Assembly: GCF_008040105.1 (NCBI RefSeq)
Contig: NZ_VRMG01000003.1
Location: forward strand, 1 to 64,000
Length of the DNA stretch: 64,000 nucleotides
Source: Lacisediminihabitans profunda
GTDB lineage: Bacteria; Actinomycetota; Actinomycetes; Actinomycetales; Microbacteriaceae
Direction: 5' to 3'
The position numbers were made by a program, and so were the translations under genes. Every line of letters starts with the position of its first letter. The first letter of the stretch is position 1. Below the pieces are notes generated by a model, which did not search any database, had not been told where the DNA came from, and worked only from the letters and a program-made list of their open reading frames with translations. Below, piece by piece: positions 23,082 to 37,041 of the stretch.

Positions 23082-24017
23082 TTATCGTCCAGCGCGAGAG
23101 CCGGCGAGGGTGAAGAAATCTCGCGCCAACTGGTGCGGGACGGTTTCGCCAATACTGTGCCCGCCGTCGGGGTAAACCTCCAGCGCGGCTCCAATTCGCA
23201 CAGCGAAGCTCTCGTGCAGCGGTATGGGCCACAAGTCGTTTCGACCAACCGCGACGAGCATCGGGACGGGACTGTCGGCGAGGCGGGAGTCCAGGTCGGG
23301 AACGTGCTTCATCAAGTCCATGATGTCGTCGACGCTTCGTCTGCTGGTGTAGTCGAATCGCAACCGCAGGAGAGCCAGCCGACCAGGGTCCGCTCGACCT
23401 CGGTTGGTGACGATGCCCCAGATAAGAAGTCCTGCGATCATGCGCGGTCGAATAAGGTAGCTCAACCGACCGATCCAACGCACACCGCGAAAGGCCTGGC
23501 CCGGCTGAGGCGGGGCGCCGAGGAGGGTGAGGGATGCAAAGAGGTCCGGGCGTTCGAGGAGCGCTAATTCAGCGACTATCCCAGCGAACGAATGCCCGAA
23601 CACGTGTGCCGGTGTTGGCCCGGCTTCAAGGAACGCGATGAGGTCCGCCACAAACAATTCGTAGGTGTACCGGACCCCAGCAACCGGTCCGGCCGCCGAC
23701 GATTCGTACTGGCCGGCAAGATCGAAGCTTTCCACGAAGTAACCGGCGGCAACCAGAAGCGGCATAAGGAGGGTGAAGTCTTCCTTCGATCCGGTGGCCC
23801 CCGGAACGAGAACAACCCTGGTCCCGGCGGCGTCGAGTGCCACATCGCCGAGGGCGATTGCCGCGAGCGAACCACTCGGCGCGCTGAACCGGAAGGGCTG
23901 CGTGCCTAAGGGCAACACTGTCCAGTCCATATCGGGAATGGCCCCGTCGAGAACCGCGGATTGGCTGGGCTGCGCCATCTCTCGTCGCGCATCACGTCGC
24001 CTCGCCGAAACAGACAT
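23082..24017 (-). CDS. Alpha/beta hydrolase
   Basis: A 311-residue alpha/beta hydrolase with the nucleophile elbow GHSFAG (Ser near 146), an acid in VAVGRNDLWPI and the catalytic His in DGGHSIGETV. The oxyanion region LVPGATGSKEDF lies near 72. There is no signal peptide. The start at 24017 or an in-frame ATG at 23978 is possible; neither has a strong ribosome binding site. Substrate unknown. Confidence 0.8.
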   Translation of the reverse strand: MSVSARRRDARREMAQPSQSAVLDGAIPDMDWTVLPLGTQPFRFSAPSGSLAAIALGDVALDAAGTRVVLVPGATGSKEDFTLLMPLLVAAGYFVESFDLAGQYESSAAGPVAGVRYTYELFVADLIAFLEAGPTPAHVFGHSFAGIVAELALLERPDLFASLTLLGAPPQPGQAFRGVRWIGRLSYLIRPRMIAGLLIWGIVTNRGRADPGRLALLRLRFDYTSRRSVDDIMDLMKHVPDLDSRLADSPVPMLVAVGRNDLWPIPLHESFAVRIGAALEVYPDGGHSIGETVPHQLARDFFTLAGSRAGR

Positions 24018-24394: not shown

Positions 24395-25297
24395 TCAGCT
24401 CGCGCCGAGATTCTCGCTGCCCGATTCGCGCCGATCCGAATTGGTGTCGGTTAATGCCTGCAGAGTTGTCGCGGCGAGGACGCGTGCCCACATTTCGTGC
24501 AGAGACTTCCAGGAGAAGGCATCCTGCACATACATATCTCCTACTCGCCAATCAGGGAACGGCACGAAGGACACATCAGGTGCCCGAGAAGCGAGCTCGT
24601 GCGTGACACTGTTCAAGCGATCGATCTGAAGTCTCAGCATCTTGCGACCAAGAGGCGGTACAGGCCGGAAGTCCACCATCGGTGGAATGCCGGCAAAGAC
24701 GACTCGGCGGTTCGGTTCGGTGTGGTTGCGGAGCTGCTCGAGTATCGTTTCGAGGTTGGATTTCCAGGCGTTCGTGCTTGTGGCGAGCAGCACATCTGGG
24801 ACGCCGAGCATGACCAGCACGACGTCAACCGGGGTCGCGTCGAGAGTCGACATTTTCGCGACCCGCGCGGCGGTGAGATCGTTCGCCGAGATGGTCGTCC
24901 ACGAACAGCCTCTCCCGCAGGTCTCGGCGACGAATCGTGCGGTCTTGGCGACAGTCGTCATCCCCTGGTGCAAAACTCCGTACCCGGACACCGTCACATC
25001 ACCGATGAACATCAGCCGGACGGGGTCAGGTCCTGGGATGACACGCTCCGGGTTATCGACGGGAAATTGAGCCCGCCGGACATCCAGTTTGTACAGGGCG
25101 AGGTGGAGGCGAAGCACGGGGCGTGCAAGAAGAATGAGTACAGCGGCCACTCCAGGGGAAAGCGTGGCCGGCCGATCGCCAGCCGTGAAGAAACCCCTCA
25201 CCAATTCAGCACTCCATTCGGTGCCCGCGCCGTGCCATCCGCCTGGCATGAATCTCGCCGTCATGCCAAATTGGACATGCACGTACGAACGGGACAT
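24395..25297 (-). CDS. SGNH-fold protein lacking the catalytic serine, third paralogue
   Basis: A 300-residue frame. A hydrophobic helix (about 49-68, VAAVLILLARPVLRLHLAL) precedes PVRLMFIGDVTVSGYGV, the SGNH block I in which GDS has become GDV (99-101). Block III reads LGVPDVLLA (165-168 GVPD) in place of GxND. A His in SLHEMWARVLA is in the block V place. The order helix, short linker, SGNH domain is the same as in the proteins at 3.3 and 13.8 kb. The first 45 residues are poor and the real start may be internal. Probably membrane-anchored; I infer no hydrolase activity. Confidence 0.6.
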   Translation of the reverse strand: MSRSYVHVQFGMTARFMPGGWHGAGTEWSAELVRGFFTAGDRPATLSPGVAAVLILLARPVLRLHLALYKLDVRRAQFPVDNPERVIPGPDPVRLMFIGDVTVSGYGVLHQGMTTVAKTARFVAETCGRGCSWTTISANDLTAARVAKMSTLDATPVDVVLVMLGVPDVLLATSTNAWKSNLETILEQLRNHTEPNRRVVFAGIPPMVDFRPVPPLGRKMLRLQIDRLNSVTHELASRAPDVSFVPFPDWRVGDMYVQDAFSWKSLHEMWARVLAATTLQALTDTNSDRRESGSENLGAS

Positions 25298-25809
25298 CCA
25301 CGGTTGATGCTGGCAGGATCAGGCTGAATTCGCTGCCCCCCGGTCGGGGGCAATTCGCATAGAGCAACTCCTATGGCAGGGACACGTCCGGATCCGGTCG
25401 GCGCGCTGCACTGATCGAGACCGTGGGCTGCACGCCCGGTCCCATAACAGCAGCTCTCCACCGGGCAGATCGCGGGCAGCGAAGAAACGACCCAACGCTG
25501 CTTGGGGGAAGCAGCGTTGGGCTTTTCGTGCGCCTTTGTCAACTCGGATCTCTGTGATTCACAGGGACACGATTCTCAGCACACCCTGCGTCGTCGGGGG
25601 AACGACGAGAGTTCAACATCGAGAATCGCACACTTCCGGTTTTGGACGCTTCTAAACGCTATCGCATGTCCTCCTTAACGAGGACACGATGTCGTACCCC
25701 AGTTGTGGGGGATTCGAGATCTGGGACAGCGGTCGGGCTCAGACCAGCAGCGCGAGACGCACGGCAAAGTTCTCCGACACTGCGTCGACGCTTATCTAGG
25801 CATGCGGCC
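25298..25809. other. Intergenic region, possible small RNA ending in a strong terminator
   Basis: No credible protein gene. On the plus strand a GC hairpin (CCCCCCGG/TCGGGGG, near 25335) is followed 150 bases later by a perfect intrinsic terminator at 25491-25521. A strong terminator with no upstream gene on its strand suggests a non-coding transcript of about 150-200 nt, but I could not match it to a known RNA family. Confidence 0.3.
25491..25527 (+). terminator. Strong intrinsic terminator
   Basis: Arms CCCAACGCTGCTT and AAGCAGCGTTGGG pair perfectly over 13 bp around a GGGGG loop and are followed by CTTTTC. Confidence 0.8.
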
Positions 25810-26973
25810 TCATCGCACGACCTTGAACAGGGCGGCCACGCCCATGCCGCCGCCGACCGCCGCCGTCGCGATTCCGAGGGTGCCCGCCGGGGCGTTGCCG
25901 CGCACGAGCCGGGAGAATAATCGAACGACGCTCACGGCTCCGCTTGCGCCCCACGGATGGCCGAGGGCGAGGGCGCCGCCCTGGGCACAGACCCGTGGAT
26001 CGGCGACGCCGTCCGGAGCTAGGCCGAGCAGGTGCAGAACGGCGAGTGTCTGCGCCGCGAACGCCTCGACGATCTCGAACGCGGCGACGTCGGCGAGGGT
26101 CACGCCCGCGTCGGCGAGTGCCCGAGTGATCGCCGCGACTGGGCCGATGCCCGGAAGCGCCGGGTCGCAGCCGACGGTCGCCGCCGCCACCAGGGCCAGT
26201 CCCGGCGTGGTTCCGCGGGATCCAGCCGGCACCATGGCGACGGCGGCGGCGCCGTCGCTGATCCGGCACGAGTTGCCCGCCGTGACCGTGCCATTGAGTT
26301 CTCCGTCCGCAGGGGCGAACAGCGGGGCGAAACGGCCAAGCATCGCCGGTATTCCGGCGCGCGGTCCGTCGTCGACCCGCACGTCACCGATCGCCACGAT
26401 CTCCTCGTCGAACCTGCCGAGCCGGTGGGCGTCGTAGGCGAGTTGATGGCTCCGCGCGGCGTAGTTGTCCTGCTGGTGTCGATCGATGTCGTACCTTAGG
26501 GCGAGCGCTTGGGCGGCGGGGCCCATCTCCGGATCGGGAAATCCGCTCGGCGCGAACGGCGCCCGAAAGTAGGCGATCCCGGCGAAGGTCCGCGTCGGCG
26601 CGGTCGAGGCGCTCTCGACTCCGCCGGCGAGTTGCAGGCGGTCGTCGCCGGCCCTGATCGCCTCACCCGCGGTGATGATCGCGGACAATCCGCTTCCACA
26701 TTGCCGGTCGACGGTCATCCCGGGAACGGCGACGTCGATCCCTGCAGCGAGCGCCGCGAGCCTGGCAATGTTTCCGCCGGGGCCCATGCAGTTGCCGAGC
26801 ACGACATCGCCGATGTCTGCCCGCGCCCCGGTGGCGGCGCGCGCATCGTCGACACAGGCCCGGATCACGGGAGCGGCGAGGTGCTCGGCGGTGACGTGGG
26901 CGAGTCGCGCGCCTTTGGTCGCGATCGGGGTGCGGCGTGCGGCCACGACGACCGGCACCCGGTCGCTAGTCAA
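25810..26973 (-). CDS. Thiolase-superfamily enzyme with an altered active site
   Basis: A 387-residue thiolase-fold protein starting at a TTG that overlaps the stop of the ligase gene. The acyl-accepting Cys is kept (DRQCGSGL, C92) and so is the His (GHPWGASGA, H339). The Asn of the usual NEAF motif is Val here (EIVEAFAAQ, V302), and the second catalytic Cys is Ala (TAAVGGGMG, A372). Classical degradative or biosynthetic thiolysis normally uses both. I infer a different condensing or acyl-transfer reaction on the product of the coupled ligase. The gene is third in an operon with bioY, so a role in making or salvaging a biotin precursor is plausible but unproven. Confidence 0.75.
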   Translation of the reverse strand: MTSDRVPVVVAARRTPIATKGARLAHVTAEHLAAPVIRACVDDARAATGARADIGDVVLGNCMGPGGNIARLAALAAGIDVAVPGMTVDRQCGSGLSAIITAGEAIRAGDDRLQLAGGVESASTAPTRTFAGIAYFRAPFAPSGFPDPEMGPAAQALALRYDIDRHQQDNYAARSHQLAYDAHRLGRFDEEIVAIGDVRVDDGPRAGIPAMLGRFAPLFAPADGELNGTVTAGNSCRISDGAAAVAMVPAGSRGTTPGLALVAAATVGCDPALPGIGPVAAITRALADAGVTLADVAAFEIVEAFAAQTLAVLHLLGLAPDGVADPRVCAQGGALALGHPWGASGAVSVVRLFSRLVRGNAPAGTLGIATAAVGGGMGVAALFKVVR

Positions 26974-28240
26974 GGCGGCGCACAGAGCCTGCCAGGACGG
27001 CGTCGCGGGCCGCGGCTCGGGCCGGCTTTCCCGTGGCGGTGCGAGGCAGATTCTCGGTCCAGAACCAGCGGCGGGGCAGGTGTGAGAGCGCCAACCTTGT
27101 GCGGGCTTGTTCTCTGAGCTCGCGTGCGGAGGGAATCGGGTTCCCGGCGGTTGTTTCGACGAGCGCGGCGACGAGGGAGCCGGTGCCCGCGTTGGGGACT
27201 CCGAAGACGATAGCGTCCTCCACTGCGTCGATCGCGCGCAGGGCCGCTTCGACGTCCTCGGGAATCACGGTCGCGGCCGCCGTCAGGATCGCGCCGTCCC
27301 GTCGGCCCCGCAGCCGCAGCAACCCCGCCGAGTCGGCATCCACAACGTCGCCGACCGTGGCCCAGCCCTGGCCGTCCCGCCGGAGGGCGCCGGTCGTCGC
27401 GGTCATCGAACCGGACGCACCCCCGAGATATCCCGCCGCGAAATAGGGGGAACGCACCCACAGGTCGCCCTCGTCCACGCGGACCTCGACACCAGGGAAA
27501 GGCCGGTAGCCGAGCCCATCGGCATCGACCGCCACGAAGGAGAGCTCTGCAGCTCCGTAATACGACACCACGCGGATGCCCGCCGCCTCGGCCCGTTCCC
27601 GCAGGGCACTGTCAAGGTGCGCGCCTCCGACCAGCGCGGCACGCAATCGGTGTGACGCACCGCCTTCGATGACCTCGACGGCGGCAGCTAAAGCGTTCGG
27701 AGTGCCGTGCATCACCGTGGCGCACTCCAGATCGGCTGGCGAGATCGTGTGCGCCTGCGGGAGGATGATGCCCGCGCCGAGCGACCGTGCATGGGCGACC
27801 GAGAAGAGCGAGAGGGACGAGGCGAGCGGCGCCGGAAGGTAGACGACGTCCGCATCGGTGAGTTCAAAGAGGCCCGAGACTCCCGGGAACGACGCGGACC
27901 AGGAGCTCTCGGTGCGCAAAATCACCCGCGGGGCGCCCGTGCTTCCCGAGCTGAATGTTGCCCACGCCATGCCGGGCACCGGTTCGGCGTCGTCCGCCAG
28001 CCGACGCAGTCCAGCCCACAGGCGCGCATCCCACCGGTCATCGCCGAGCAGCGGGATGCCGCCGGATTCCCGCAGCGCGAGAGCCTCTATGAGCGCCGCG
28101 ACCCGGTCCGCGTCGATAATCGGAACGACGCGGCCCGGCGTGCTGTCTCGCTCGCCCCGTGACCGGTCGATGCGCGCCTGCAATTGGGTCTCGGTCAGCG
28201 AGACCGACCCGCAGGAGACCGCGACCCGGTCGACCGTCAC
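26966..28240 (-). CDS. Short AMP-forming acyl-CoA ligase-like enzyme
   Basis: A 424-residue member of the class I adenylate-forming family, close to MenE in length and shorter than most 500-600-residue acyl-CoA synthetases. The P-loop reads TFSSGSTGAPRV, with Arg instead of the usual Lys. A YYGAAE motif, TVGDVVDADSAGLLRLRGR and the C-terminal catalytic Lys in RTATGKPAR are present. It should activate a carboxylic acid as the acyl-AMP and pass it to CoA. It starts at a GTG overlapping the bioY stop by four bases and overlaps the thiolase start, so the three products are translationally coupled. Confidence 0.8.
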   Translation of the reverse strand: MTVDRVAVSCGSVSLTETQLQARIDRSRGERDSTPGRVVPIIDADRVAALIEALALRESGGIPLLGDDRWDARLWAGLRRLADDAEPVPGMAWATFSSGSTGAPRVILRTESSWSASFPGVSGLFELTDADVVYLPAPLASSLSLFSVAHARSLGAGIILPQAHTISPADLECATVMHGTPNALAAAVEVIEGGASHRLRAALVGGAHLDSALRERAEAAGIRVVSYYGAAELSFVAVDADGLGYRPFPGVEVRVDEGDLWVRSPYFAAGYLGGASGSMTATTGALRRDGQGWATVGDVVDADSAGLLRLRGRRDGAILTAAATVIPEDVEAALRAIDAVEDAIVFGVPNAGTGSLVAALVETTAGNPIPSARELREQARTRLALSHLPRRWFWTENLPRTATGKPARAAARDAVLAGSVRRLD

Positions 28241-28866
28241 GGGGTGTTCGCGCCCTGCTGCACGGGCGAATCAGCACGCTCCGCCAGGGCTGAAGCCTCG
28301 GAACCGCGACCAAAGGCCCGCGGATAGGCCCGCCAGAGCGCCAGTGTGATGAGCGTCGTGACGACCACCTTGAGTATGTCTCCCGGGAGGAACACGGTGC
28401 TCGAGAGGGCTGTCTGGGCCAGCGAGAGCTGAGTCACGAGGGCCTGGACGGGAATGCCGAGCGCGTAGACGACGACGACACCGCCCACGACGCAGCCGAG
28501 GGCGGTCCGCCACCACGTGGGCCTTCGGGTGCCGGCACGGACGATAGCGCCGATGACGAAGGCCCCGAAAATCCAGCCGGCCAGATAGCCGGCCGACGGG
28601 CCGACGAACACGCCGATGCCCCCGCGTCCCCCCGAAAGCAGCGGAAGCCCGAGGAACACGAGCGCCTCGAACACGGCCACGGCGGCAGCTCCCCGCCACC
28701 GGCCGAGCACGGCACCGGCGAGCATCACACCGAGGGTCTGGGCGGTGATGGGAACGGCGCCGCCGAAGACCGGGATCGCCCCGGGAATGCCGAGCACGGC
28801 GATGATCGCCGCGAAGACCGCGATCCGCGTCACGTCGCGAATGTCGACTCGAATTCGACTGCCCAC
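28237..28866 (-). CDS. bioY: BioY biotin transporter substrate-binding component
   Basis: A 209-residue membrane protein from the GTG at 28866 (AGGGAG at good spacing). Six hydrophobic segments and the BioY signatures PITAQTLGVMLAGAVLG, FLGLPLLSGGRGG and FVGPSAGYLAGWIFGAF are present. BioY is the S component of ECF biotin transporters. The energising bioM/bioN genes are not adjacent, so it may share an ECF module or act alone. Two TGAAC/GTTCA palindromes lie just upstream, and the divergent gene is a BioQ-type regulator. Confidence 0.9.
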   Translation of the reverse strand: MGSRIRVDIRDVTRIAVFAAIIAVLGIPGAIPVFGGAVPITAQTLGVMLAGAVLGRWRGAAAVAVFEALVFLGLPLLSGGRGGIGVFVGPSAGYLAGWIFGAFVIGAIVRAGTRRPTWWRTALGCVVGGVVVVYALGIPVQALVTQLSLAQTALSSTVFLPGDILKVVVTTLITLALWRAYPRAFGRGSEASALAERADSPVQQGANTP

Positions 28867-28882
28867 CCTGTACTCCCTAACC

Positions 28883-28902
28883 TGAACGCTGTTCACCTGA
28901 AC
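28883..28902. promoter_or_regulatory. BioQ-type operator
   Basis: TGAAC-GCT-GTTCA at 28883-28895 overlaps GTTCA-CC-TGAAC at 28891-28902, giving two interlocked palindromes between bioY and bioQ. Actinobacterial BioQ is reported to bind TGAAC-N3-GTTAC-like sites, so the match is close. It would control both divergent units. Confidence 0.75.
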
Positions 28903-28934
28903 ACCGTACAGGACGCTGGTACGATAACGGAACA

Positions 28935-29573
28935 ATGTCACTTCCAGAAACGGTCGGCACCCGGTCCACCCGCCATTCGCGCGACGATGTCGTCGCGGCG
29001 GGCCTGAGGATCCTCGACGAGCACGGGCTGCCCGACCTCACCATGCGGCGGCTGGCAGCGACGCTCGATGTGCAGCCGAGCGCGCTCTATTGGCACTTCG
29101 CCAACAAGCAGACGTTGCTCGCATCCATCGCCGACCAGATCGTGTCCCGCGCCGCGCCGGCGGGGCGCACCGACGACGAGTGGAACGGCACGGCCCGTGC
29201 GGAGGCCGAGGCACTCCGCGACGCGCTGCTGGCCTTCCGGGATGGGGCAGAGGTCGTCTCGAGCACCCTCGCCCTCGGGCTCGGCGCTGACGAGGCCCAG
29301 AAACGGCTCTCCCGCGCAATCCATCGCGGCGGTTACGACGACAGGACGAGCGAGATCGCGGCGGCGGCCCTGCTCCACTTCATCCTCGGCCACGTATCGC
29401 ACGAACAGCAACGTATCCAGGCCGACAGCCTCGGTGTCGTCGCACTCGGGCACTCGGCGGACCCGTTGGGTGCCGTCGCCGGCGACCGCGGGCGCGAAGC
29501 CTTCGACTTCGGAATAATACTCCTACTCTCGGGGCTCGAACTCCGGGCCCACGCCCGCACGAAGCACACCTGA
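28935..29573 (+). CDS. bioQ: TetR-family regulator, probably BioQ
   Basis: A 212-residue TetR protein: [37 protein letters not shown] and [14 protein letters not shown] form the DNA-binding domain, followed by a TetR C-terminal domain. Its position, divergent from bioY with TGAAC/GTTCA operators between them, matches the BioQ repressor of actinobacterial biotin genes. The stop overlaps the start of panD (TGATG), so the two are coupled. Confidence 0.8.
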
Positions 29574-30574: not shown

Positions 30575-31595
30575 GGAGACGACGCTAGTGGCTAGGACCG
30601 ACGATGCGGGTGACTCTCATTCGAATCACTAACGAGGTCAATTGGATCCCTGGTGCCACTGCTGGCCACGAGCTGATTCAGCGTTTCCGGACATGAAGAT
30701 CTAGCCGCATTTCCTTCGGTGTATCAATAGCAGTAGTCACAGGATTGATCGAATCGAGTGTCTATACCTCAGGTAGCAACGTTGAGATCTGGCGTTGAGA
30801 CTTCGAACTCAGGTTCTTCCGCAGTAGTAGCTGGTCCTGTCTTGGTATTCCAGAATGGGTGGTTGGGAGAATGTGGCTACATCTGAGAGGGGAGTCGTCA
30901 CATGCCCCGTCCGTATCCGGCCGAGTTCCGTGAGCGCGCGCTTGAACTCGTGCGCTCTGGTCGGACCGTGGTAGAGACTGCGGAGTTGCTTGGGATCGCG
31001 CAGTCCTGCCTATACCGATGGAAGCAGCTGGACCTTGTCGACCGGGGGCTCAAGCCTGATAGTGCGCGCGTCGAGTCTCGCACTCTTGCGGTGGCGAAAG
31101 CTCGGATCCGGGATCTCGAGGAAGAGGTCAAAATCCTGCGGAAGGCGGCCGAGGCCGTGGAGCAGGTGGTGCCCCCAAAAGAACGCTTCCGTCTCGTGGA
31201 CGAGCTCCACGCTGACGGAGTGAGAGTTCGCCGGGCTTGCCAGGCGCTTGGGGTGTCGACCTCCGGTTACTGCGAGTGGCGGGGCCGTGCGCCGTCTGCT
31301 CGCTCGATCCGGCACGCATTCCTTACTGATCTGATCGGCCAAATCCATGACGCCTCTTACGGGATATACGGCCAGCTGCGTGTTCGTGCTGAGCTGCAAC
31401 GCGGCCACGGCATCATCGTCGGCCGCGGCACTGTCGCCCTTCTCATGCAGCGCGCAGCCCTGTCCGGGCTTCCGCTCCGACGCCGCGGCAAGCGTTCCCC
31501 GAACCAGGTCACAGTCACGGACCTCGTGAAGCGGCAATTCACCGCGTCGGGTCCGGACAAGCTCTGGGTCACCGACATCACAGAACACCCGAGCC

Positions 31596-33235
31596 CTTGG
31601 ATTCCAGCAGTCGTCGCAACACGCTCTCGTTATGAAGCTTCAAGTAAAGCAGTGAGACGCTCAGCGGGCGTGTCCCAGTCGAGGGATTTTCGAGGCCGGT
31701 CATTCAGCTCGGTGGCGACTTCAAGAAGACGCCCGACGCCGTGCGGGGCAAGGTCGGTGCCCTTGGGGAAGTACTGCCGGAGGAGCCCGTTGGTGTTCTC
31801 GTTGCTGCCGCGCTGCCAGGGGGATCCCGGGTCTGCGAAGTAGACGTCGAAGTCCGTCGCGACGCTGAACGCGCGGTGTTCTGCCATCTCGGCGCCCTGG
31901 TCCCAGGTCAGCGATTGCCGAAGCGATGCCGGCAGGTGCCGGACTGTGGTGATCAGCGAGTCGCGGAGAGCTTCCGCGTTTCGTTCGCGGCCGAGGTGGG
32001 CCAGCATCACGAAGCGAGTCGTCCGCTCGACCAGGGTGGCGATCGCGGAGCCGCCCAGGGCGCCGATGATGAGGTCGCCCTCCCAGTGGCCGGGAATCTG
32101 TCTGGTCTCGACCTCGGCCGGTCGTTCGCTGATTGGCCGCATTTGATCGACGAACCGTGGACGTCGTGCGTCTGGCTGCTTTCGAGGTTTCCGGGCGACG
32201 CGACCTCGCCGCAGCTGTGTTCCGAGTTCCCGTCGCAGCTCGCCACGGGCGTGGACGTAGATCGCCTGGTAGATCGTCTCCGTGCTCACCCGCATCTCCT
32301 TCGCGCCCGGGAACTCTTTGACCAGTCGATTGCTGATCTGCTGGGGCGACCACTTCCTAGAAAGCTTCCCCTGAATGTAGGCGCGGAGCCGGTCGTTGGC
32401 GACGACTTTCGGTGTCCGTGGCCGTGCTCGCCGTGTCACGGACAATCGGTGCGCAGTGTGCGGGAGGTAGCCACGCGCCGAGACGGTGTTGCGTTGCAGC
32501 TCGCGGCTGATCGTCGACGGCGCCCGTTGCATCACGACCGCGATCGCGCGGATGGACAATCCAGCGCGGTGAAGATCGTGGAGATGCTCACGCTCCACGA
32601 CGCCGAGGTATCGGGGGTGGATGATCTTCTCGACGATGTTCAGGTCGACGGTTCCGCCGATGGCACGGGATCTTCGTTCAGGCACGACCCCATTGTTTCT
32701 TTCCGGATACCTGACCACGCGCCCATCGGGATAGATCCGGCCTCGCTTGATGATCGTGATCCCCTTGTCCCAGTCCGTCGCAGACCGGGTATCCGCACCG
32801 ACCGCCGCACGGGCCTGAGCGCGGGTGAAGCCGGTGGCTCGGAGCCGGAGGAACTCGTCTCGTCGTGGATTGACCCTGCGTGCTTCGCTCGTGGAGATGC
32901 CGGCCTTTCGCGCCCACGCATATGCGGTCGGACGGTGAATACCTAGCTCGACAGCGACAGTCGAGATGATCTGACGCTCAAAGACCAGCCGCAGAAACTC
33001 GGTCTTCAACTCCGGCGGATAGATGCGCGGAACGGCCCGCTTCATCGTCAGACCCGTCTTGCGTAACCAGTTGTAGCCGGCGTTCTCATTCACCCCGACT
33101 GCTCGCGCGGCAGCCCGAACCGTGCCGCCTCGATCGAGAAGCCGGAAGAACTCGTCCTTCTGCTCGTCCGTGTACTTCTTGCCCGCCATCGCCGCCACCT
33201 TCCATCAGGTGTTGCGACGACTGCTGGAATCCAAG
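31596..33235 (-). mobile_element. Intact IS30-family element
   Basis: A 1640-bp element with perfect 27-bp terminal inverted repeats: CTTGGATTCCAGCAG at 31596 and its complement ending GGAATCCAAG at 33235. It is flanked by GCC on both sides (31593-31595 and 33236-33238), a likely 3-bp target duplication. It carries a single transposase gene on the minus strand. Confidence 0.85.
31630..33189 (-). CDS. IS30-family transposase
   Basis: From the ATG at 33189 (GGAAGG upstream) 519 residues. N-terminal helix-turn-helix units (YTDEQKDEFFRLLDRGG and EFLRLVFERQIISTVAV) precede the IS30 helix-turn-helix (LSIRAIAVVMQRAPSTISRE). The DDE domain is complete: GHWEGDLIIGALG, SLTWDQGAEMAEH and DPGSPWQRGSNENTNGLLR. 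The N-terminal 200 residues make it longer than the classical IS30 protein of about 380. Likely functional. Confidence 0.92.
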   Translation of the reverse strand: MAGKKYTDEQKDEFFRLLDRGGTVRAAARAVGVNENAGYNWLRKTGLTMKRAVPRIYPPELKTEFLRLVFERQIISTVAVELGIHRPTAYAWARKAGISTSEARRVNPRRDEFLRLRATGFTRAQARAAVGADTRSATDWDKGITIIKRGRIYPDGRVVRYPERNNGVVPERRSRAIGGTVDLNIVEKIIHPRYLGVVEREHLHDLHRAGLSIRAIAVVMQRAPSTISRELQRNTVSARGYLPHTAHRLSVTRRARPRTPKVVANDRLRAYIQGKLSRKWSPQQISNRLVKEFPGAKEMRVSTETIYQAIYVHARGELRRELGTQLRRGRVARKPRKQPDARRPRFVDQMRPISERPAEVETRQIPGHWEGDLIIGALGGSAIATLVERTTRFVMLAHLGRERNAEALRDSLITTVRHLPASLRQSLTWDQGAEMAEHRAFSVATDFDVYFADPGSPWQRGSNENTNGLLRQYFPKGTDLAPHGVGRLLEVATELNDRPRKSLDWDTPAERLTALLEAS

Positions 33236-35333: not shown

Positions 35334-36184
35334 GAGGCTGTCCTTTCGAGCGCATCCGGAATCTTCTCGGTCCAGGTCAGTCGGTCCGCCTCGAGCGGAG
35401 TGATTGGAAGACGGCCGGCGCCGTCCGGCACAGGGATGGCCGCGAGAAGCGCCCGGGTGTAGGGATGAACGGGGTTCTGCCAGATCGACTCCGTGTGGCC
35501 TGATTCGACGATTCGCCCGCAGTACATTACGAGCGTCCGGTCGGCGATGCGACGCACCACCGACAGGTCGTGCGAAATAAACAGCATGCCCGCACCGGCC
35601 TCGAGGCAGAGCGAGCGCATGAGCGCTGCGACGCTGGTCTGGGTCGAGGCGTCGAGAGCCGAGATCGGCTCGTCGGCGACGAGCATCCGAGGGCGCGCCG
35701 CGAGAGCCCTCGCGATTGCGATGCGCTGTTTCTGGCCGCCGGAAAACTCGTGCGGGTAACGACGCGCTGCCGTTGGATCGAGACCGACGCGCTCGAGCCA
35801 CTCCGCCGGATCGGAACCTGCGTCTCCCCGGAGCACCGCTGCCCGCACGCCGTCCGCAATCTGGTCACCGACCCGGCGACGCGGATTGAGTGACGAGTTG
35901 GGGTCCTGGAACACCATCTGCATCCCTGTCAGGGCGAGGGGGCGACGACGGATGCCGAGCACGGGCACCTCGTCGCTCCCGAATTTCACGCTACCGGACC
36001 CGAGTCTCTCGATGCCGACAACCGCTCGCGCGAGACTCGACTTGCCACAGCCGCTCTCGCCGACGAGCGCAACAACCTCGCCCGCTGCGATCGCGAGGGA
36101 AACACCGTCGACTGCCCTGAGCGGCGGTCGCCCGCGATACTCAACGACAACGTCGGAGGCGGTGAGCACCGGCATGGTCGTCAC
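35330..36184 (-). CDS. dppF: Oligopeptide ABC transporter ATPase, DppF type
   Basis: A 284-residue ATPase. Walker A GESGCGKSS near 42, the Q-loop VFQDPNSSLNPR, the signature FSGGQKQRIAIARAL, Walker B MLVADEPISALD and the switch His in ISHDLSVV are present. The C-terminus has the HPYTRALLAAIP segment of the oligopeptide family, but the Cys-rich iron-sulphur cluster of DppD homologues is not seen. Overlaps both neighbours by four bases. Confidence 0.88.
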   Translation of the reverse strand: MTTMPVLTASDVVVEYRGRPPLRAVDGVSLAIAAGEVVALVGESGCGKSSLARAVVGIERLGSGSVKFGSDEVPVLGIRRRPLALTGMQMVFQDPNSSLNPRRRVGDQIADGVRAAVLRGDAGSDPAEWLERVGLDPTAARRYPHEFSGGQKQRIAIARALAARPRMLVADEPISALDASTQTSVAALMRSLCLEAGAGMLFISHDLSVVRRIADRTLVMYCGRIVESGHTESIWQNPVHPYTRALLAAIPVPDGAGRLPITPLEADRLTWTEKIPDALERTAS

Positions 36185-37041
36185 TCGATCGCCTCCGTCC
36201 TGGTGGCGTTGAGCAGCTCCGCGACGAGCGCCTCCGGTGATTCCTCGAGCTTCGACCCAGGAAGCGCCGCGAGCAGTGACCGGGTGTACGCGTGCTGCGG
36301 GTCGGTGAAGAGTTGTTGTCGTGGCGCAGACTCGACTATGACTCCGGCGCGCATAACCGCCACCTCATCGGCCACGGCACTCATGACGCCAAGGTCATGG
36401 GTCACAAGGAGCACGCTCAGGCCGGCGTCATCGACGAGCTCCCGAAGCAACTGCAATATTCCCGCCTGGACGGTGACATCGAGGGCCGTCGTCGGCTCGT
36501 CCGCCAGCAGGACGTCGGGTTCGCACGCGAGGGCGACGGCGATGGCGATGCGCTGGCGCTGGCCGCCCGAGAACTGGTGAGGGAACTTCTTGAGCGCGCT
36601 CGTCGGATCGGGAACCCGAACACGCTCGAGGAGGGCGCGTGCACGATCACGCGCATCCCGTTTGCCCAGCTTCAGGTGGTGTCGCATGTGGTCGGTGAGT
36701 TGCCGGCCCACCGAGAGCTGCGGATGCAGGCTCGTCGACGGATCCTGGAACACCATGGCGATGCGTCTGCCACGGATGCCGGCGAGCACCTGACGCGGCG
36801 CACCAAGAAGTTCCGTGTCGACGTCATTGGTATCGAGAACGACCGAGCCCGATGTCGTCATCGATTCCGGGAGCAGCCCGAGGATGGCCAGCGCGGTCAC
36901 GGTCTTGCCTGAGCCCGACTCGCCCGCGAGGCCGTGAATTCGACCCCTCTCCAGGGTGAGATCTATGCCATCCACCACGGCGCGGGGCCCCCCTTGGGTT
37001 CGCACATCGATTTGCAGGTTCGTGATCCTGAGGATGCTCAT
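36181..37041 (-). CDS. dppD: Oligopeptide ABC transporter ATPase, DppD type
   Basis: A 286-residue ATPase with Walker A GESGSGKTV, Q-loop VFQDPSTSLHPQ, signature FSGGQRQRIAIAVAL, Walker B VLLADEPTTALD and THDLGVM. The C-terminal HAYTRSLLAALPG is typical of the peptide subfamily. It pairs with the ATPase downstream to drive the two permeases. Confidence 0.88.
   Translation of the reverse strand: MSILRITNLQIDVRTQGGPRAVVDGIDLTLERGRIHGLAGESGSGKTVTALAILGLLPESMTTSGSVVLDTNDVDTELLGAPRQVLAGIRGRRIAMVFQDPSTSLHPQLSVGRQLTDHMRHHLKLGKRDARDRARALLERVRVPDPTSALKKFPHQFSGGQRQRIAIAVALACEPDVLLADEPTTALDVTVQAGILQLLRELVDDAGLSVLLVTHDLGVMSAVADEVAVMRAGVIVESAPRQQLFTDPQHAYTRSLLAALPGSKLEESPEALVAELLNATRTEAIE

Follow-up and report, generated by a model that had tools for sequence, protein, structure and literature searches.

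A putatively biotin-regulated bioY–ligase–thiolase operon in Lacisediminihabitans profunda: a probable carboxylate-extending module with a possible role in salvage of chain-shortened biotin

Analysis of a 64,000-nucleotide stretch of the Lacisediminihabitans profunda genome (contig NZ_VRMG01000003.1, positions 1–64,000; hereafter the window) revealed an operon in which bioY, a biotin transporter gene, is followed by genes for an acyl ligase and an altered thiolase-like enzyme. An enzyme that activates acids and an altered condensing enzyme recur together beside a biotin transporter in at least three bacterial phyla, and the operon probably constitutes a biotin-controlled module that activates a carboxylate and extends it by two carbons, coupled to biotin uptake. 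With somewhat less than even confidence, we propose that the substrate of this module is norbiotin, so that chain-shortened biotin already carrying its rings (bisnorbiotin-like acids) would be salvaged. The fullest form of the proposal, held a little more loosely still, is an unrecognised vitamin-salvage pathway in which biotin clipped by β-oxidation would be imported, activated with coenzyme A (CoA), given back two carbons by a thiolase whose second Cys was lost a single time in evolution, and finished by dedicated enzymes in some Firmicutes or by borrowed fatty-acid enzymes.

All three genes lie on the minus strand. bioY (28866–28237; GTG start, TGA stop) encodes the S component of a biotin energy-coupling factor (ECF) transporter (Pfam BioY PF02632, 122 bits), the second gene (28240–26966; GTG start, TAG stop) a short AMP-forming acyl ligase of the YhfT type (424 aa; PF00501 and PF13193), and the third (26973–25810; TTG start, TGA stop) a thiolase-superfamily condensing or acyl-transfer enzyme of the YhfS type (387 aa; PF00108/PF02803). 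As described in an earlier note on this DNA, the genes overlap at both junctions, by 4 bases between bioY and ligase and by 8 bases between ligase and thiolase. Such overlaps recur above chance among the nearest relatives: of the six closest loci, three (L043, L045, L047) again have −4/−8 and a fourth (L048) −4/−11. The predicted bioY start at 28866 was favoured over that of the longest open reading frame (ORF), which would begin at 28941, because the latter would take in the operators described below.

Alignment of the window thiolase with solved thiolases bore out the residues listed in the earlier note: Cys92 and His339 are kept, Val302 replaces Asn, and Ala372 replaces the second Cys. The comparison was extended to 90 rows: in addition to the window, these were 34 loci of its own actinobacterial order, 40 from Bacillales and three from the enterococcal family, together with nine named genomes and plasmids of Azospirillum (two) and Rhizobium (one). 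Cys92 and His339 were present in all 90 rows. The second Cys was lost in 87, being replaced by Gly (45), Ala (24) or Ser (18), and the three rows with Cys were those of the enterococcal family. The position of the Asn in the NEAF motif held Asn in 59 rows, Val in 15, Thr in 14, and Gln and Gly in one each; this change is clade-specific, not family-wide. All 70 ordinary thiolases taken from the same scan as a control carried Cys-Asn-His-Cys. The bioY-linked thiolases formed one clade, with 100/100 support in a tree of 78 rows (48 versus 30 ordinary thiolases) and an SH-aLRT value of 100 in a 106-row tree built by a quick method (90 versus 16 ordinary), and on the latter tree the Cys/non-Cys state requires a single change. 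Because all ordinary rows carry Cys and the enterococcal-family rows are adjacent to them, a single loss of the second Cys is the simplest reading, with the enterococcal branch long and its position unsure.

In classical thiolases, the second Cys is the base that takes a proton from acetyl-CoA in the non-decarboxylative Claisen condensation, and it is also used in thiolysis. Its absence from 87 of 90 rows suggests that these enzymes use a malonyl donor or serve in acyl transfer only. Of the residues checked for a catalytic thiolase (EC 2.3.1.9/16), the window protein retains the nucleophile Cys and the His and lacks the second Cys and the NEAF Asn. Its Pfam matches are those to Thiolase_N/C; that to the ketoacyl-synt family, which bears on a kinship with BioZ, the ketoacyl synthase III (KAS III)-like enzyme of pimelate synthesis, fell just under the cut-off. 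An AlphaFold (AF2) model (predicted local distance difference test, pLDDT, 87.7) found solved thiolases as its nearest folds (Z ~55, root-mean-square deviation 1.9 Å), the structure searches with this and the ligase model being informative on fold only.

The ligase contains the expected ATP-site residues, namely the P-loop SSGSTGAPR, Glu232, Asp298, Arg313 and Lys405, and the ATP site is intact across the family (Gly99 in 87/87 of the rows that have a residue at that position, Glu232 in 87/87, Arg313 in 88/88, Lys405 in 87/88). The P-loop and the residues that we take to be the A5 Glu, A8 Arg and A10 Lys of ANL acyl-CoA ligases are thus all in place, and the enzyme may form a CoA thioester. 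The earlier note had singled out an Arg in the P-loop; this residue, Arg105, is indeed there, but it is an ordinary swap (of 87 family ligases, 59 have Lys there and 28 Arg) and carries no weight as an oddity, and we rejected it as a mark of altered function. The family is marked instead just after the P-loop by Arg109 (83/87, otherwise Lys) and Trp114 (87/87), at both of which E. coli MenE has an aligned His. The AF2 model of the ligase (pLDDT 86.6) best matched a MatB chimera, MenE and feruloyl-CoA synthetase (Z ~35, tied with many others). Ligase and thiolase identities were correlated across 86 loci (Spearman 0.82; equalled in 0 of 999 permutations, host kinship not removed), as expected for genes that are inherited together.

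Searches for the thiolase in the actinobacterial order (E ≤ 1e-60) revealed it in 35 of 198 genomes. The ligase was present in 33 of the 34 loci other than the window and bioY in 28 (in 23 cases on the same strand), and in 31 of the 34 bioM and bioN lay no more than 3 kb from the thiolase gene; the commonest order was bioY-ligase-thiolase-bioM-bioN. Two Azospirillum plasmids carry bioM-bioN-bioY-ligase-thiolase followed by a major facilitator superfamily (MFS) gene, Shimia has bioM-bioN-bioY-ligase-thiolase, and a plasmid of Rhizobium sp. Kim5 (L079:2970–8388) has thioesterase-ligase-thiolase with bioY absent from the 13 kb. In Bacillales, 122 of 299 genomes gave a thiolase match at E ≤ 1e-88, and among 40 loci picked from these the ligase was present in 40, bioY in 38, all three genes in 38 and all three codirectionally in 36. 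Some variants were also observed. In L064 (genome G064) a thiolase of the family stands immediately before bioM-bioN, and matches to the window ligase and bioY are absent from the 13 kb. In Nocardia (L087:9397–10803, as well as L091 and L132) a second AMP-ligase gene follows bioN in the same direction, and these operons may thus contain two ligases. The Kim5 locus adjoins an NAD-binding gene annotated as a short-chain dehydrogenase/reductase (SDR) and a divergent zinc-type dehydrogenase gene. At E ≤ 1e-30 the thiolase has matches in 253 Rhizobium plasmid records, most of them candidate members of the family.

In some Firmicutes the operon continues into genes that would complete a two-carbon extension. 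That of Fictibacillus barbaricus goes on with two overlapping MaoC-type genes (PF13452, PF01575), and that of Enterococcus sp. MSG2901 reads bioY-ligase-thiolase, two small dehydratase-like genes (DHa and DHb), an SDR gene and a nitronate monooxygenase (NMO)-type gene (PF03060), a family that we take to include the FabK enoyl reductases as well. The second MaoC-like protein of both Fictibacillus and Enterococcus has the motif SGDxNPIH; DHa matched our MaoC-A profile at 7e-5 to 1e-7, and one DHb is a seed member of its own profile. Among 98 genomes of the enterococcal family, only two besides MSG2901 had a thiolase of >50% identity, and both have the same gene run, one without NMO, so that the NMO/FabK-type gene occurs in two genomes overall. 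Profiles built here detected the MaoC pair in 18 of the 40 Bacillales loci, the SDR in 8 and the full set of three genes in 6; both MaoC profiles fall on a single open frame in L258 and L264. Taken at their predicted activities, the enzymes together make up a two-carbon extension cycle in which activation and condensation are followed by ketoreduction, dehydration and enoyl reduction, and the FabK-like gene, if it encodes an enoyl reductase, indicates the reductive direction.

The same set of genes resembles, in its ligase, hydratase, SDR and thiolase, a set for β-oxidation, by which biotin would be activated and its side chain shortened, with the thiolase cleaving. We regard such breakdown as highly improbable, since classical thiolysis also uses the second Cys, visual inspection of ORF lists from cassette-bearing loci showed no acyl-CoA dehydrogenase (no aimed search was made), and control by a biotin regulator beside an importer would suggest shortage rather than excess. 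The cassette could also serve a biotin-sparing lipid route: when biotin shortage stops acetyl-CoA carboxylase, the ligase would activate fatty acids from outside, and the thiolase, MaoC, SDR and enoyl reductase would extend them with acetyl-CoA, without malonyl-CoA. Such a route would account for the biotin-type regulation and the transporter linkage, for the coexistence of the reductive cassette with an unaltered Cys-Asn-His-Cys thiolase in the three loci of the enterococcal family, and for the NCBIfam label of the ligase family, acyl-CoA synthetase. It is nevertheless unlikely, if not strongly so, because acetyl-CoA condensation in classical thiolases depends on the Cys that 87 of the 90 rows have lost, and because the window ligase is short and has the structural matches given above, tied though their Z values are.

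The predicted control of the operon points to biotin. Two predicted BioQ operators, TGAACGCTGTTCA (28883–28895; exact motif match) and TGAACACCGTACA (28898–28910; one mismatch, 15 bases from the first), sit between bioY and a divergent TetR-family regulator gene, bioQ (28935–29573, plus strand; PF00440 and PF02909), in agreement with the earlier note, which had placed the genes behind such operators. In the passages of PMC3398298 consulted, TGAAC-N3-GTTCA is given as the predicted BioQ site, and several Nocardia genomes are described as having bioQ and bioB in one cluster. In three Nocardia genomes a TetR 44–47% identical to that of the window adjoins bioB; each of these genomes has one exact site at TetR/bioB and another before its bioY-ligase-thiolase genes. 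Both the upstream palindrome and a regulator related to bioB-linked TetR proteins are thus found, consistent with membership of a BioQ regulon. In the 4.0-Mb assembly, TGAACNNNGTTCA occurs without mismatch in two places, each upstream of a bioY, and with one mismatch allowed in 41 places versus 11 for a reversed control pattern. Each of the six nearest relatives likewise has a divergent TetR and two exact operators.

In Firmicutes, a dyad that we take to be the BirA-type motif (≤3 mismatches) was found upstream of bioY in 35 of 42 loci. At most one of the 49–98 control windows of the same locus was as good in 29 of these 35, and two to four were as good in the other six; a single equalling window is probably the same palindrome on the opposite strand. 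A search of four alphaproteobacterial loci for BioR boxes, using what we presume to be the motif, found none. Ligase-thiolase loci are therefore accompanied by two unrelated regulator types, BioQ sites in the window, its six relatives and the three Nocardia genomes, and BirA-type dyads in Firmicutes.

The second exact site in the assembly belongs to another BioQ-bioY locus (L077, contig C161, ~401850–404460), in which bioM and bioN follow and the TetR and BioY are 76% and 82% identical to their window counterparts. The window operon itself does not contain a complete bioYMN transporter, as bioM and bioN are not in the same operon: the window gave no bioN match, and its sole bioM-like matches (34–35%) lie at 35498–36990, beyond bioQ. 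A third, more distant BioY is located amid ABC-type ATPase genes (L078, contig C106, ~206750–207280), with no BioQ-like site listed within 15 kb.

We also compared the distribution of the operon with the capacity of its hosts to make biotin. bioB was absent from 48 of the 87 host genomes tested (actinobacterial 31/35, named 3/10, Bacillales 12/40, further enterococcal-family 2/2), a count in which some genomes are incomplete (G040, 73%) and from which Azospirillum and Rhizobium, searched as plasmid records only, were left out. All three enterococcal-family genomes, whose operons are the longest, lack bioB. In L. profunda, no bioB match exceeded the cut-off (best 37 bits, cut-off 225) and no bioF-type match reached 1e-50, whereas BirA is present; the assembly consists of 171 contigs with a completeness of 98.97%, and a gap might still hide bioB. 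The earlier note had held that its proposal would fail if the trio occurred solely in biotin prototrophs with complete bio operons, and the distribution is of another kind. In Firmicutes, the MaoC pair accompanied the trio in 11 of 15 bioB-less and 11 of 29 bioB-bearing hosts (p = 0.055), and in Bacillales alone in 8 of 12 and 10 of 28, respectively, both comparisons being uncorrected for kinship. The surroundings of bioB vary, with B-A-D and no nearby F in G062, B-A-F-D in G005 and G204, and bioB without these partners in the stretch at hand in several others. A search for bioF in the 198 genomes does not discriminate, with none over the cut-off and 79 at 1e-50, which are presumably Kbl-type relatives.

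These counts bear on a route to a pimelate precursor, in which glutarate would be activated and extended once by two carbons to pimeloyl-CoA, the enzyme being a thiolase-fold counterpart of BioZ. The logic resembles that of BioZ, which uses glutaryl-CoA and malonyl-ACP (acyl carrier protein) according to the passages of PMC7645780 consulted; the cassette would complete the cycle, and bioB is present in 28 of the 40 Bacillales hosts. Against this stand the 48 hosts without bioB, which include L. profunda and those three enterococcal-family genomes with long operons, and the finding that in the loci compared the trio has no E. coli-type bioF/A/D/B match next to it. Since bioB is absent from so many hosts, a pimelate-precursor role cannot be general and was rejected as such, and we consider the route improbable. 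For the same reason the earlier note's wider suggestion, extension of a biotin or lipoyl precursor as the general role, was not supported; no link to lipoate was seen, and no search aimed at lipoate was made. A function common to all members must work without BioB, which favours a substrate already carrying the biotin rings.

A BirA-ligase match (E ≤ 1e-10) was found in all 35 thiolase-bearing genomes of the order, some under the curated cut-off, and replacement of BirA was therefore rejected as unneeded. This result also bears on a trapping route, in which the ligase would retain imported biotin as biotinyl-CoA and the thiolase relative would take the biotinyl group off CoA onto Cys92 and hand it to some other acceptor, with no carbon-carbon bond made or broken. 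The conservation of Cys92 and His339 in all rows, combined with loss of the second Cys and often of the Asn, fits an acyl-enzyme half-reaction alone, and the ligase gene adjoins that of the transporter. The route is distinctly unlikely, however, in that it leaves the MaoC, SDR and NMO genes of some Firmicute operons unexplained, and substitute protein biotinylation would be superfluous where BirA is present.

Extension of chain-shortened biotin would proceed as follows. At high biotin, BioQ would bind the operators and repress the operon. BioY may import shortened relatives of biotin as well as biotin itself. Biotin is shortened to bisnorbiotin via β-oxidation in animals and microbes. (Among such shortened forms, bisnorbiotinol alone is mentioned in the passages of PMC11089781 consulted.) The ligase, with ATP and CoA, would convert the acid to its acyl-CoA, and the acyl group would move to Cys92 of the thiolase-like enzyme for condensation with a two-carbon donor. 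A malonyl thioester is the likelier donor, with decarboxylation giving the carbanion as in ketoacyl synthases, because the second Cys that serves as base in classical thiolases is gone. The 3-keto group would then be reduced, dehydrated and reduced again, in some Firmicutes by the SDR, MaoC pair and NMO/FabK-like protein of the operon and in L. profunda presumably by housekeeping fatty-acid enzymes; tblastn found none of the cassette genes beside the window operon. Hydrolysis would finally release biotin for BirA. Of the new route imagined in the earlier note, the parts "activate and extend" and "salvage biotin" fit this scheme, by way of the Firmicute dehydratase pair, ketoreductase and NMO/FabK-like genes.

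Several observations weigh against this proposal. Both the substrate, norbiotin, and the direction are what we infer. The window operon contains no reductase, dehydratase or thioesterase gene; the cassette occurred in none of 45 actinobacterial and alphaproteobacterial loci (≤3 kb downstream, same strand), and 22 of the 40 Bacillales loci lack the MaoC pair. The enterococcal DHa and DHb match no Pfam family, and the MaoC/SDR set by itself could also run in reverse. The three enterococcal-family thiolases retain the second Cys, and the decarboxylative reading therefore does not fit every member. L106 has a long branch in the tree, and models of 3-oxoadipyl-CoA thiolase give it a higher score than does the YhfS model. 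The window thiolase passes TIGR01930, the general NCBIfam acetyl-CoA C-acyltransferase model (291.6 bits, cut-off 240.55), and sequence alone thus leaves it inside that family. In five actinobacterial loci (L070–L074) the transporter genes run in the opposite direction. For the 28 actinobacterial loci beyond the six relatives, the 250 bases preceding the first gene contained no BioQ site (≤1 mismatch); in 26 of these loci the whole fetched stretch was free of such sites, and L060 and L069 have one each elsewhere. The Bacillales hosts with bioB outnumber those without it, as counted above. Within the order, presence of the thiolase was independent of bioB among the 198 genomes (both in 4, thiolase only in 31, bioB only in 19, neither in 144; Fisher p = 1); the unit is therefore not tied to auxotrophy there, and a link of the thiolase to bioB loss was rejected.

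Other features surround the locus. A terminator-like hairpin that scores on both strands lies 3′ of the thiolase gene (25490–25522), and past it two ORFs on the minus strand (23082–24017 and 24395–25297) resemble, by eye, alpha/beta and SGNH hydrolases. On the other side, panD (aspartate decarboxylase, TIGR00223; 29573–29983, plus strand) begins on the final base of the bioQ stop codon, placing a pantothenate gene behind a biotin regulator. The region 30902–33198, adjoining the biotin locus, contains transposase-like ORFs on both strands (IS3-type and IS30-type by eye).

The combination of cassette, BioQ or BirA-type regulation and bioB-less hosts narrows the substrate question to a few acids. 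If norbiotin salvage is true, calls of auxotrophy based on bioB overlook a source of biotin, the YhfT/YhfS-type genes gain a function, and a decarboxylative synthase of thiolase fold would be a useful enzyme.

The earlier note had presented the trio as a new route; the gene pair itself is known. YhfT and YhfS are BirA targets (PMC6391492, PMC7235819), a regulation repeated in a 2024 review (PMC11089781), and the consulted passages of all three describe them as putative homologues with function not stated. Among the matches listed in a literature search, titles and abstract openings gave no function for yhfT/yhfS and no description of the cassette, and an earlier description is possible. The yhfT-yhfS genes of Bacillus and Staphylococcus (NF005797/PRK07638 and NF005212/PRK06690) share with the window a ligase and a thiolase beside or co-regulated with bioY, and their models are the best NCBIfam matches of both window proteins. 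We take B. subtilis YhfT and YhfS to be members of these two models. The Fictibacillus pair passes both cut-offs and its thiolase falls in the clade of the window thiolase, whereas the window proteins stay well below them (thiolase 304.3 bits versus 498 for NF005212, ligase 140.3 versus 518 for NF005797), and the Fictibacillus ligase has 499 aa versus 424. The yhfT-yhfS loci further differ in having BirA-type rather than BioQ sites, Asn rather than Val at position 302, and Gly rather than Ala at the second-Cys position. The actinobacterial bioYMN operon, as treated in the consulted part of PMC3398298, also has bioY with BioQ sites, and bioM/bioN lie near the thiolase in 31 of the 34 related loci; the window differs in its added ligase and thiolase and in having bioM-bioN at the second locus. 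BioZ of alphaproteobacteria, as far as the same passages of PMC7645780 go, is likewise a biotin-dedicated condensing enzyme that leaves later steps to fatty-acid synthesis, as we propose for the window; the window system differs in its PF00108/PF02803 thiolase, its ligase partner and its many hosts without bioB. Biosynthetic thiolases such as that of Zoogloea ramigera (entries 35–36% identical) have the same fold, nucleophile Cys and His, and differ in the second Cys and NEAF Asn, which are replaced in the window enzyme. What is new is thus the extension cassette together with the loss of the Cys; the ligase-thiolase pair was known already, and its actinobacterial form, which has BioQ sites and bioYMN, is a variant.

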